A stretch of 64,000 nucleotides of DNA from Mumia sp. zg.B17 (lineage in GTDB: Bacteria; Actinomycetota; Actinomycetes; Propionibacteriales; Nocardioidaceae). A program made the translations under genes and the position numbers. The stretch spans positions 124,001 through 188,000 of the forward strand of contig NZ_JAHWCI010000009.1 in assembly GCF_019550915.1 (NCBI RefSeq), written 5' to 3'. Under the pieces are notes generated by a model, which saw only the letters and a list, made by a program, of their open reading frames with translations, did not search any database and was not told where the DNA came from. Each line of letters begins with the position of its first letter. Position 1 is the stretch's first letter. Shown here one piece after another: positions 6,546 to 43,123 of this stretch.

Positions 6546-7550
6546 ATGCGCGCGATGTGGAAGGGCACGATCTCGTTCGGCCTGGTCACGATCCCGGTCA
6601 AGATGTACGGCGCGACGTCCACGCACGACATCTCCTTCCGTCAGGTCCGACGGAGCGACGGGTCGCGCGTGAAGTACAAGCGTGTCGCCGAGGCGGACGG
6701 CGAGGTCGTCGACTACGGCGAGATCGCCAAGGGCTACGAGCTCCCCGACGGACGGATGGTCGTCCTGACCGACGACGACATGGAGGAGCTGCCGCTGCCC
6801 ACCAAGAAGGTGGTCGACGTCCTCGAGTTCGTCCCGCTGGAGCAGATCGACCCGATCTTCCACAACAAGAGCTATTACCTCGAGCCCGACACGAACGCCG
6901 GTCTCAAGCCGTACCTCCTGCTCCGTGAGGCGCTCGAGGCCTCCGACATGGTCGCGGTCGTGAAGGTGACGATCGGCACACGCGAGCAGCTGGCGACCAT
7001 CAGGGTGCGCGAGGACGTCCTCACGCTGAGCACGTTGATGTGGGCCGACGAGATCCGCAAGCCCGAGTTCTCCTTCCTCGGAGAGGACGTGCAGCTGCGA
7101 CCCCAGGAGATCAAGATGGCGCAGTCGTTGGTGGCCAGCATGGAGGCCGACTTCGACCCCGAGCAGTACCACGACGAGTACGAGGTCGCCCTCGACGAGC
7201 TGGTCGCGGCGAAGCTCGAGGGCAACGAGGTCGTGCAGCCGGCCGTCGGCGAGGGCGCGGAGCAGCCTGACAACGTCGTGGACCTGATGTCCGCTCTCCA
7301 GGCGTCGATCGACCGGGCGAAGAAGGGCGAGGGTGAGGCCGTCGCCGGGGTGGACGCCGACGAGAAGGACGAGGCCGACGGGGCCGACGAGAAGCCCGCC
7401 AAGAAGGCCGCGGCGAAGAAGGGCTCTACCAAGAAGGCCCCGGCGAAGAAGACGACCGAGAAGAAGACGGCGGCCAAGAAGACGACCGCCAAGAAGACCC
7501 CGGCGAAGAAGCCCGCAGCCAAGAAGACGGCCGCCAAGAAGGCTTCCTGA
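6546..7550 (+). CDS. ku: Non-homologous end-joining protein Ku
   Basis: Ku binds DNA double-strand ends as a ring-shaped dimer and recruits ligase D. Residues 1-250 match bacterial Ku (start MRAMWKGTISFGLVTIPVK, then FHNKSYYLEPD and TLMWADEIRKP). The last 65 residues are a long lysine/alanine tail of repeated AKK(T/A) units. Such tails are known in several actinomycete Ku proteins and increase DNA binding. Family length without the tail is about 270. ATG 6546 follows GAGAGAGGTGGAG. No ligD lies in the window, so the partner must be elsewhere. Confidence 0.95.
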   Translation: MRAMWKGTISFGLVTIPVKMYGATSTHDISFRQVRRSDGSRVKYKRVAEADGEVVDYGEIAKGYELPDGRMVVLTDDDMEELPLPTKKVVDVLEFVPLEQIDPIFHNKSYYLEPDTNAGLKPYLLLREALEASDMVAVVKVTIGTREQLATIRVREDVLTLSTLMWADEIRKPEFSFLGEDVQLRPQEIKMAQSLVASMEADFDPEQYHDEYEVALDELVAAKLEGNEVVQPAVGEGAEQPDNVVDLMSALQASIDRAKKGEGEAVAGVDADEKDEADGADEKPAKKAAAKKGSTKKAPAKKTTEKKTAAKKTTAKKTPAKKPAAKKTAAKKAS

Positions 7551-41234: not shown

Positions 41235-41603
41235 ATGCGCATCGACCAGCACGGGGACCTCCGCGTCCTCTCGCTCGACCCCGACGGGCCGCCGATCGCC
41301 ACCCCGGCCGACGGCGCCCAGCTCGTCGGCGACGCCTGGGCGCACGACGCGCAGATGGTCGTGGTGCCCGCTTCCCGGCTCGATCCGGAGTTCTTCCGGC
41401 TCCGCTCGGGGTTGGCGGGGGAGATCCTCCAGAAGCTGGTGAACTACCGCATCCGGCTCGCCGTGCTGGGCGACATCACGGCGTACGTCGAGGCGAGCGA
41501 CGCGCTGCGTGATCTCGTACGCGAGTCCAACAAGGGGAGCCAGGCGTGGTTCGTCCCGGACGAGGACGCCCTCGCCGCCCGCCTCTCCTCCGCGATTCGG
41601 TGA
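41235..41603 (+). CDS. DUF4180-family protein
   Basis: The 122-residue product is recognised as DUF4180 by PADGAQLVGDAWAHDAQMVV, VPASRLDPEFFRLRSGLAGE and LQKLVNYRIRLAVLGDI, plus SNKGSQAWFV near the end. The family function is unknown. The ATG 41235 has weak upstream signal. Its last three residues (AIR) and stop are encoded by the left arm of an inverted-repeat element, described separately. Confidence 0.85.
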   Translation: MRIDQHGDLRVLSLDPDGPPIATPADGAQLVGDAWAHDAQMVVVPASRLDPEFFRLRSGLAGEILQKLVNYRIRLAVLGDITAYVEASDALRDLVRESNKGSQAWFVPDEDALAARLSSAIR

Positions 41604-41654
41604 GGAGATCGAGCCTGCTCCGCCGGGTGCACCCGATTTCCTCACCGAATCGCG
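41591..41654. repeat. Inverted-repeat element, copy A
   Basis: A 21-bp arm (41591-41611, core GCGATTCGGTGAGGAGATCG) and its complement (41634-41654, one mismatch) enclose 22 bases. The TGA inside the left arm is the stop of the DUF4180 gene. A second copy, with nearly the same arms, lies at 42282-42343. The two share little in the loop. Confidence 0.85.
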
Positions 41655-41665
41655 CGCTGGCGTGG

Positions 41666-41677
41666 CCCGAATTCGGG
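41666..41677. promoter_or_regulatory. 12-bp palindrome before the RibD-like gene
   Basis: CCCGAATTCGGG is a perfect palindrome between element copy A and the ATG at 41712. It may be an operator for that gene. Confidence 0.35.
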
Positions 41678-41711
41678 TGACGTCCTCCGCCTGCGTGGTT
41701 GTGTCGGCGCT

Positions 41712-42293
41712 ATGCGAGCGATGACCTACTACATCGGCCTCACCCTCGACGGCTTCATCGCCGGACCGGACGACGAGGTCGACTTCTTCCCGATGTCCGA
41801 CGACTTCATGGGCTTCATGGCGACCGAGTGCGCTGATGCCCTCCCGGTCCAGGCGCGCGAGGCGCTCGGCGTTGCTGACACGCCGTTGACCACGTACGAC
41901 ACGGTCGTGATGGGACGGCGCACGTACGACCCGGGCCTGGCGCTCGGGCTCACCGACCCGTACGCCCATCTCCGCACGGTGGTCTTCAGCCGCTCGCTCG
42001 CAGAGTCGCCCGACCCCAAGGTCGAGGTCACCACCGCCGACCCGGTGACACGGGTGCGCGAACTCAAGGCGGAGGAGTCGCCCCTGGGGATCTATCTCGC
42101 CGGCGGTGGTGTGCTCGCCGGTCAGCTGCTCGACGAGATCGACCGGATGGTCGTCAAGAAGTACCCGGTCGTCGCCGGCACGGGCGTCCCCGCGTTCACG
42201 GCGGCGTTCCGGCCCACAGCGTTCGCGCTCGACGACGTGGCGACGTTCGACAACGGCTGCGCCGTCCTCACCTACCACCGAGCGATTCGGTGA
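41712..42293 (+). CDS. RibD C-terminal/DHFR-like reductase
   Basis: The 193-residue product has the dihydrofolate-reductase-like fold of the RibD_C family: MTYYIGLTLDGFIAGPDDEV, TVVMGRRTYDPGLAL and GIYLAGGGVLAGQLLDEIDR, the last a likely NADPH-binding loop. Members of this group reduce pterin-like or other small substrates; stand-alone copies are rarely characterised. ATG 41712 or 41721 could be the start. Its C-terminal AIR and stop come from copy B of the repeat element, and copy A lies 58 bases before its start. Confidence 0.82.
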   Translation: MRAMTYYIGLTLDGFIAGPDDEVDFFPMSDDFMGFMATECADALPVQAREALGVADTPLTTYDTVVMGRRTYDPGLALGLTDPYAHLRTVVFSRSLAESPDPKVEVTTADPVTRVRELKAEESPLGIYLAGGGVLAGQLLDEIDRMVVKKYPVVAGTGVPAFTAAFRPTAFALDDVATFDNGCAVLTYHRAIR

Positions 42294-42343
42294 CGAGATC
42301 GGGCGAGTCCGAGCCGGGACCCCCGATCTCCTCACCGAATCGC
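42282..42343. repeat. Inverted-repeat element, copy B
   Basis: Left arm 42282-42303 (GCGATTCGGTGACGAGATCG plus GG) and right arm 42322-42343 pair over 22 bases with one mismatch, loop 18 bases. The left arm supplies the last codons and TGA of the RibD-like gene, exactly as copy A does for DUF4180. The left arms of A and B differ at one base over 20. Confidence 0.85.
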
Positions 42344-42367: not shown

Positions 42368-43123
42368 GTGCGCGGGGGCGTGCCGCGGTGGGTCACGGCG
42401 TTCATCGACCAGCCCGCCGACTCGGCCAGCAGCGCACTGGCGTTCTGGGAGGGGGTCACCGGCACGCAGGCGTCGCCGCCTCGGGGGGAGAACGACGAGT
42501 TCCGCACGTTGCTGCCGCCGCACGGGGATGCCTACCTCCGCCTCCAGGTCGTCCCGGACGGTCTTCCACGGGTCCACCTGGACCTGCACGTGGACGACCT
42601 GGCAGCGGGGCGGGAAGCCGCGGTGCGCGAGGGCGCCACGATTACGGCCGAGCCCGGCACCCACGTCGTCCTCAGCTCACCGGGTGGCATGCCGTACTGC
42701 CTCGTGCCGTACGAGGGTGAGCACGAGGTGCCCGCACCGATCGCGTGGGAGAGCGGTGCGCGAAGCGTCCTCGACCAGGTGTGCCTCGACATCCCGCCGG
42801 CGTCGTACGCCGACGAGTGCCGGTTCTGGGCCGGGCTCACCGGGTGGACGTTCCGTGACGAGGACACTCCGGAGTTCGCACGGCTCGTGCGGCCGGAGGG
42901 GATGCCGTTGGGCATCCTGCTCCAACGCCTGGAGGACCCGCCTGCGCACGGCGCGGTGACCGCTCACCTCGACCTCGCCGGTGGCCGGGACGGAACCGAT
43001 GCGGTGGCCGACCGCCACAAGGCGCTCGGTGCCGACGAGCGGTGGAGGTCGCAGGGGTGGATCACCCTGCGCGACCCGTCTGGCCGCAACTACTGCGTCA
43101 CCCGGCGAGAGCCTCCGCGATGA
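42368..43123 (+). CDS. Two-domain VOC/glyoxalase-like protein
   Basis: The 251-residue product has two VOC modules, about 1-120 (FIDQPADSASSALAFWEGVT, then LRLQVVPDGLPRVHLDLHVD and TYCLVPYE-like end) and 125-251 (QVCLDIPPASYADECRFWAG, then HLDLAGG and DPSGRNYCV). The paired modules suggest a complete metal or ligand pocket, but the catalytic residues of glyoxalase I are not all evident. GTG 42368 has GAGGGCGGGGG upstream; GTG 42380 is an alternative. The frame also runs back through repeat copy B. Confidence 0.75.
   Translation: MRGGVPRWVTAFIDQPADSASSALAFWEGVTGTQASPPRGENDEFRTLLPPHGDAYLRLQVVPDGLPRVHLDLHVDDLAAGREAAVREGATITAEPGTHVVLSSPGGMPYCLVPYEGEHEVPAPIAWESGARSVLDQVCLDIPPASYADECRFWAGLTGWTFRDEDTPEFARLVRPEGMPLGILLQRLEDPPAHGAVTAHLDLAGGRDGTDAVADRHKALGADERWRSQGWITLRDPSGRNYCVTRREPPR

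Follow-up and report, generated by a model that had tools for sequence, protein, structure and literature searches.

The two palindromes that end successive genes in the 64,000-nt stretch of the Mumia sp. zg.B17 genome analysed here (the window) are, as judged by sequence comparison, one "dialect" of a wider class of palindromes in related bacteria. In the reading that we favour, at a rough probability of 0.45, they are fixed-length, two-way gene-end (termination or boundary) elements, the arms of which would be held to a genome-specific sequence by a trans-acting partner. Such an element would lie directly 3' of genes, in most cases in the gap of a convergent pair or behind the first gene of a tandem pair, and would bound transcription from either side, resembling a hairpin or terminator as RNA and being symmetric as DNA. 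The arm would often also give the stop codon, TGA in this genus and TAG in others, the C-terminal AIR being the arm's spelling in one frame. A sequence-specific partner, probably a DNA-binding protein that recognizes each half-site, would keep the copies of a genome to one spelling, and this spelling would shift from species to species.

Table 1. Palindromic elements and associated genes in the window (positions within the 64,000-nt stretch).
Feature	Position	Strand	Details
Palindromic element, copy A	41591..41654	.	arms 41592-41613 and 41632-41653; loop ~18 nt
Palindromic element, copy B	42282..42343	.	arms 42282-42303 and 42322-42343; loop ~18 nt
TGA stop, DUF4180 gene	41601..41603	+	within left arm of A; protein end ..SSAIR*
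TGA stop, RibD_C-type reductase gene	42291..42293	+	within left arm of B; protein end ..YHRAIR*
DUF4180 gene	41235..41603	+	PF13788, E 1.2e-38; 3' end in A
RibD_C-type reductase gene	41712..42293	+	PF01872, 24.1 bits, equal to the Pfam cut-off; bracketed by A and B
Glyoxalase_6 gene	42368..43123	+	PF18029; after B; neighbour, outside the element

The near-identical 22-nt arms of copies A and B follow the consensus GCGATTCGGTGAGGAGATCGGG and its complement with few changes, and their loops are unrelated. An earlier note, made from the sequence alone, had reported these positions, arms and loops, and had remarked that each left arm holds the codons for AIR and the TGA stop of a gene and that the two copies bracket the reductase gene; re-reading of the sequence bore out all of this. 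A 20-mer of the arm matched the window four times with up to three mismatches, against 0.04 matches expected from shuffled sequences, and both copies were predicted to fold far more strongly than their shuffles (z of -6.3 for A and -7.9 for B). No Rfam model matched the window at its gathering score, and a consensus terminator scan, which considers loops of 3-8 nt only and is thus blind to loops of 18 nt, reported neither copy.

Across the entire 3.86-Mb genome, the arm was matched 17 times at up to three mismatches and its reversed pattern, serving as the control, not at all. The matches comprise eight two-armed copies on six contigs and one lone arm, the latter recognized by a covariance model built from the eight copies as a decayed two-armed copy (C11:44941-45001; C11b). 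The earlier note's dispersed palindromic repeat is thereby supported. The model recovered all eight intact copies; of 2809 first-look candidates, 150 were scored, and these yielded no further copy at E ≤ 1. Fold z values ranged from -3.2 to -8.7 for the intact copies, and the value for the decayed one was -1.4. Two-sided changes were seen at only one of the 22 arm pairs among the eight copies; pairs that co-vary so little point either to conservation of the sequence itself or to recent copies. By hand reading, each of the nine copies overlaps, or lies within approximately 90 nt of, the 3' end of a gene or tRNA. Copies C5 and C11a lie between convergent genes; C7, C11b, C11c, C9, A and B lie 3' of a gene in a tandem pair, that before C9 being a weak 57-aa call; and C12 lies downstream of a tRNA-Ser gene. 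The decayed copy also ends a gene, encoding an amidase (PF01425) with the terminus PAIR*. A second, ordinary-looking hairpin was seen by eye close to both C9 and C12, so these two copies may be dispensable as terminators. The coding role that had been suggested for the element found no support, as most copies lie outside genes and a gene entering an arm just stops at its TGA or TAG. An exact 19-mer of the arm found 11 stretches in a collection of named genomes, with one match in each, nearly all from distant bacteria and one from Amycolatopsis marina.

Comparison with congeners indicates that the AIR ends of the DUF4180 protein and the reductase derive from the element in this genome, because the orthologues in four of the five congeners (G002-G005; the fifth, G001, gave a weak match only) end otherwise and are not followed by the palindrome. 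The reductase orthologues end in LTYAR plus A, R or P and those of the DUF4180 protein in ..SASA, ..VDAS, ..LSPA or ..LASA, and inspection by eye of the 117 nt downstream of these genes found no such palindrome. A covariance-model search of G001-G005 gave no matches at E ≤ 0.01. DNA similarity to G002-G005 ends at or just before each element, at positions 41584-41593 and 42275 of the window. The proposal that the element had become the C-terminus of both proteins was supported by the comparison of orthologues that had been named beforehand. In G002 and G005, the DUF4180 match and the reductase match are about 650 nt apart, compared to 93 unaligned nt here (41585-41677, which includes copy A); the neighbourhood of A has therefore changed too, and the rearrangement coincides with the element. 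No clean empty site for A, B or C5 was seen in the congeners, which have other neighbours at A and B, and no direct repeats indicative of target-site duplication were noticed by eye around the copies. Weak same-genus matches to the covariance model (E 0.002-0.8) were rejected, appearing by eye to be ordinary hairpins or repeats within genes.

Palindromes of the same layout occur in other genomes. Two members of another genus, G184 and G236, carry 19 and 23 palindromes, respectively, of the GGGRTAGTCCGGGGCGSAAATCAG type, all 42 of the same length, and this arm has 0-2 matches (up to three mismatches) per genome in the remaining 292 of the sample. A gapped pattern anchored on GATTCG found 16 copies in G001, seven of the eight own copies and a single one in G158; the 291 remaining genomes, congeners G002-G005 among them, had no copy. 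The gapped pattern GGGRTAGTC found 1-27 copies in 86 of 294 genomes, from two of 26 genera, both of them other members of the family, and its reversed control matched one genome (G148); genomes matched by neither gapped pattern may carry dialects outside their reach. What links the own-genus class to the GGGRTAGTCC class is their size, their layout and a single flanking gene in common, which adjoins an assembly gap in G167, and not a likeness of the arms; this weakens the case for one class. Among 13 element-bearing loci, Rfam identified only four tRNAs and a guanidine-III riboswitch.

The dialects were compared using 106 copies from 33 of the 86 carrier genomes in two genera, these being the first places in each genome, with the other 24 copies of G239 outside the sample. 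The length was 67 nt in 94 copies, 66 in nine, 68 in two and 61 in one, and 82% of the arm positions outside the search pattern were paired, compared to 28% after shuffling. With the nine genomes represented by at least four copies each, two of which (G184 and G236) share a dialect, the arms were 0.86 identical within and 0.48 between genomes, and the loops 0.46 and 0.34, respectively. In G167, the copies have arms 0.99 identical and unrelated loops. Between genomes, the outer anchor and the size are common, and the spelling differs in the middle of the arm. In the loops, a core, TACY-N3/4-RGTA, was found in 15 of 18 copies of G184, four of 22 of G236, all five of G249, and none of the 37 in six other genomes; its presence in both G184 and G249 indicates that at least these two dialects probably share an ancestor. 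Whole elements fold strongly in each of 12 genomes (mean z -6.1 to -12.8, mononucleotide shuffles) whereas half-elements fold weakly in nine of them (+0.16 to -0.80), those of G262, G249 and G032 being partly self-folding (-1.5 to -1.9). Together, the dialects suggest a shared gene-end signal with a sequence that would drift from species to species.

The position of the copies relative to genes is one ground for proposing a boundary function. A simple gene caller placed 39 of 83 copies from other genera between convergent genes, 39 between tandem genes and five between divergent genes, compared to 12, 60 and 57, respectively, of the intergenic stretches in the fetched loci that were 60 nt or longer and free of elements (Fisher 4e-10). 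The counts became 25, 31 and 4 (Fisher 5e-8) once G236, with its sites in common with G184, and G239, for which the site had been selected, were set aside. This caller wrongly called A and B divergent and may err elsewhere too; the own copies were placed by hand and stand outside the 83. With G001, 14 copies from 13 fetched loci were divided between nine convergent, three tandem and two divergent gene pairs. The copies between divergent genes, 5/83 and 2/14, count against the boundary reading. Of the gene ends facing an element, 100 of 117 lie at -7 to 60 nt from it (median of these, 9 nt). The stop codon was provided by the TAG of the arm for 31 of the 117 (20 of 81 without G236 and G239), and both arms supply a stop for seven convergent pairs at four distinct loci; a gene running into an arm stops at TGA in the own genus and at TAG in the other genera. 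A boundary role is further suggested by the convergent C5 site, where the element's place is taken by ordinary short-loop hairpins in congeners G003 and G004.

At the same C5 site, the palindrome of G001 is equal in size and has a different arm. Counting only sites at which both flanking genes match, two further cases were found where homologous neighbours enclose different arms: G184/G236 compared with G239, a site found by inspecting that locus, and G167 compared with G236. In addition, two copies in G236 flank a gene whose relative in G142, 45% identical, is likewise bracketed. Within one dialect, 16 of the 19 G184 sites are common to G236 (at 12 of them the gene caller matched the genes on both flanks), so in this one species pair the copies appear to be mostly old. 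At these 16 sites, the arms are 93%, the loops 57% and the flanks 79-87% identical, which indicates that the arm is constrained and the loop nearly free; between copies of a single genome, arm identity is 94% and 90%. The earlier note had offered, as one option, a terminator that spreads: its terminator half comes near to the present reading, and its spreading half is at odds with the sites shared by this species pair.

It is a credible possibility, at clearly less than even odds, that the palindromes are instead REP/MITE-like, non-autonomous mobile elements with a transposase that was lost or went unrecognised, best tolerated just 3' to genes, with decay that proceeds outward from the loop. 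Such mobility would account for arms that are alike within a genome and for copies that are paired more closely than chance (P 3e-4 in the own genome; 0.013 and 0.028 in G184 and G236, which share sites). Pairs lying 0.7-2 kb apart around one or two genes recur across dialects (L155/L177, L164/L191, L295, L268, L327, A-B in the window, and L049), and pairing within 1-2 kb is better explained by local copying than by the boundary reading. At locus L153, the one site followed in 30 fetched genomes, the element was found in only three; 14 of the 17 carriers of the GGGRTAGTC pattern lack it there, including G128 with 16 copies, and G033 and G189 (11). Sharing between dialects is thus real but sparse, given these absences and the few two-flank sites. 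In addition, C11b has decayed, and a neighbouring ORF (L049:3825-4883) reads without a break, in another frame, through the whole of the C11a palindrome to overlap its convergent neighbour; its product has a weak match to REase_MTES_1575 (24.3 bits, below the cut-off of 38.2). Rickettsia palindromic elements, as mentioned in PMC3733652, are readable as protein, whereas the palindromes here, C11a excepted, contribute at most a C-terminal tail of few residues.

The GTAG-REPs are palindromic families, some of them species-specific, that lie 3' of genes and often supply a TAG stop, are found between convergent or unidirectional ORFs, and have units that are often oppositely oriented (Di Nocera 2013, PMC3733652). 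The elements here resemble them in lying at gene 3' ends and giving a TAG stop to neighbours, a point in favour of mobility. They differ in that a GTAG or ATAG is paired within the stem, in their fixed length of about 67 nt and their 1-27 copies per genome; REP units of 20-40 bp are themselves palindromic with an unpaired GTAG/CGTC tag (PMC3733652), whereas most half-elements here do not fold alone, a weakness that mobility leaves unexplained. The main text of PMC3733652 contains no mention of Nocardioides, Mycobacterium, Streptomyces or "actinobact-". A REP-associated tyrosine transposase (RAYT), which the earlier note had suggested looking for, was not found: the Y1_Tnp profile (PF01797) is absent from the own genome and was positive in five of 14 control genomes. 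Moreover, each of the 17 arm matches in the own genome belongs to a palindrome, intact or decayed, and hence no resident element carries these ends. Also unlike copies made whole are the unrelated loops between near-identical arms (0.99 in G167) at near-constant length, and the age of the 16 of 19 sites shared by G184 and G236 speaks against mobility as well.

It is distinctly unlikely that the palindromes are plain intrinsic terminators, duplicated per lineage, of which the hairpin alone counts with no trans-acting partner. The 3' position, the strong hairpins of the eight intact own copies and the ordinary hairpins in congeners all agree with such a role, as does an A-tract/GC-stem/T-tract layout inside several dialects, e.g., that of G167. 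However, where dialects have a T-tract it is inside the stem only; no T run follows the element, T making up 13% of the 12 nt that come after it in 33 tandem copies from other genera. This lack counts against the gene-end reading too. Arm sequence is also kept beyond pairing. At position 13, the two sides read CC in 12 of the 42 G184/G236 copies, GC in nine, CG in eight, GG in seven and others in six; the position is thus paired in about half of the copies, although either side mostly has C or G, and position 14 of G001 shows similar half-site variation. On the RNA strand, G-U and A-C pairs number 24 and 20 (33 of 39 tandem copies, with a gene end within 130 nt), compared to 9 and 2 in a control of 13 ordinary hairpins, a difference that is not significant (Fisher 0.17) with 11 mixed pairs in the control, some from one hairpin. 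Since selection on RNA should favour G-U, the 24:20 ratio and the independence of the halves are a hint that the half-sites may matter as double-stranded DNA.

TRIT, reportedly described by Gardner in 2011 with RNIE, is said to be a conserved terminator family of M. tuberculosis and thus an actinobacterial, sequence-conserved hairpin repeated at gene ends. We know of no species dialects or independent half-site degeneracy in TRIT. By its description it is the motif of one lineage, which sets the palindromes here apart from it. Nevertheless, TRIT, which is named in PMC3526491, is the nearest actinobacterial kind, and GTAG-REPs and TRIT terminators are the closest known kinds overall. The structured repeats Myt-1 and Myt-8 of M. 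tuberculosis are likewise actinobacterial stem-loops of similar size (Myt-1 is 72 nt with 75 copies), a likeness of size and stem-loop form (table rows of PMC2267715). Literature searches among open papers found no title or abstract opening that describes these palindromes.

The partner in the gene-end reading preferred here is proposed from three features together, viz. arms that are uniform while loops are free, a length that is fixed, and half-sites that vary independently. A more specific version of it, in which a genome-specific DNA-binding factor would read two half-sites of about 26 nt at fixed spacing and mark the 3' ends of some 10-30 genes per genome, with the sites respelled in place when specificity shifts and some loci kept (in-place concerted evolution), is rather doubtful. 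The ending of transcripts in actinomycetes without T-rich terminators is poorly settled. A gene-end palindrome with arms that are uniform in each genome and respelled between species, with a few sites in common, amounts to a natural experiment: the dialects predict a factor that could be traced by its co-evolution with the sites, and they offer paired sites for testing termination, insulation of convergent genes and REP-like spread.

That the palindromes are uptake words or integron attC-like recombination sites around gene cassettes would be most surprising. Pairs do bracket single genes in the own genome (A-B and C11a-C11b), G001, G142 and G184/G236, and the variable loop with a stop inside the arm recalls attC. 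Likewise, the dialects recall those of DNA uptake sequences (DUS), which differ between related species (PMC3630211), and inverted pairs of one genome-specific uptake word form gene-end hairpins in Neisseria and Pasteurellaceae (PMC1852404). Uptake words, however, are approximately 9-11 nt long and number at least a thousand per genome, whereas the arms here number a few dozen per genome (17 in the 3.86 Mb of the own one) and form inverted pairs of fixed length. The copies are scattered over several contigs and not arrayed. The attC core motif is GTTRRRY/RYYYAAC, and no such core was seen by eye. An integron cassette was set aside for the bracketed reductase, the copies being dispersed inverted pairs.

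A number of minor observations were made. In the window, a tandem repeat with units of 15, 30 and 45 nt (GCCAAGAAGACCGCG) at 7396-7541 possibly encodes a Lys/Ala-rich protein tail. Short direct repeats of the form acccgcgacgcccc run up to the palindrome on the left flank of C7 (L048), and a palindrome reading CCAGGGTGAGGAAAACGCGGAC.. lies next to short tandem repeats of the GGGGCTGG type at L074/L194 (G216:C23:293387-293445). The single copy found by pattern in G158, of another genus (L267, G158:C240:14822-14877), is a near-perfect 56-nt palindrome that starts GATTCG..GAGTTC as in the G001 dialect. With G236, 18 of the 23 copies are within the first 1.92 Mb of the 4.28-Mb contig C1. The guanidine-III riboswitch is located at L047:6576-6635 (G000:C5), with an Rfam score of 38.9 bits against a cut-off of 36. 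It lies some 2.5 kb from copy C5 and just upstream of a gene for a 104-aa membrane-protein-like product, which resembles a small guanidine/multidrug exporter.
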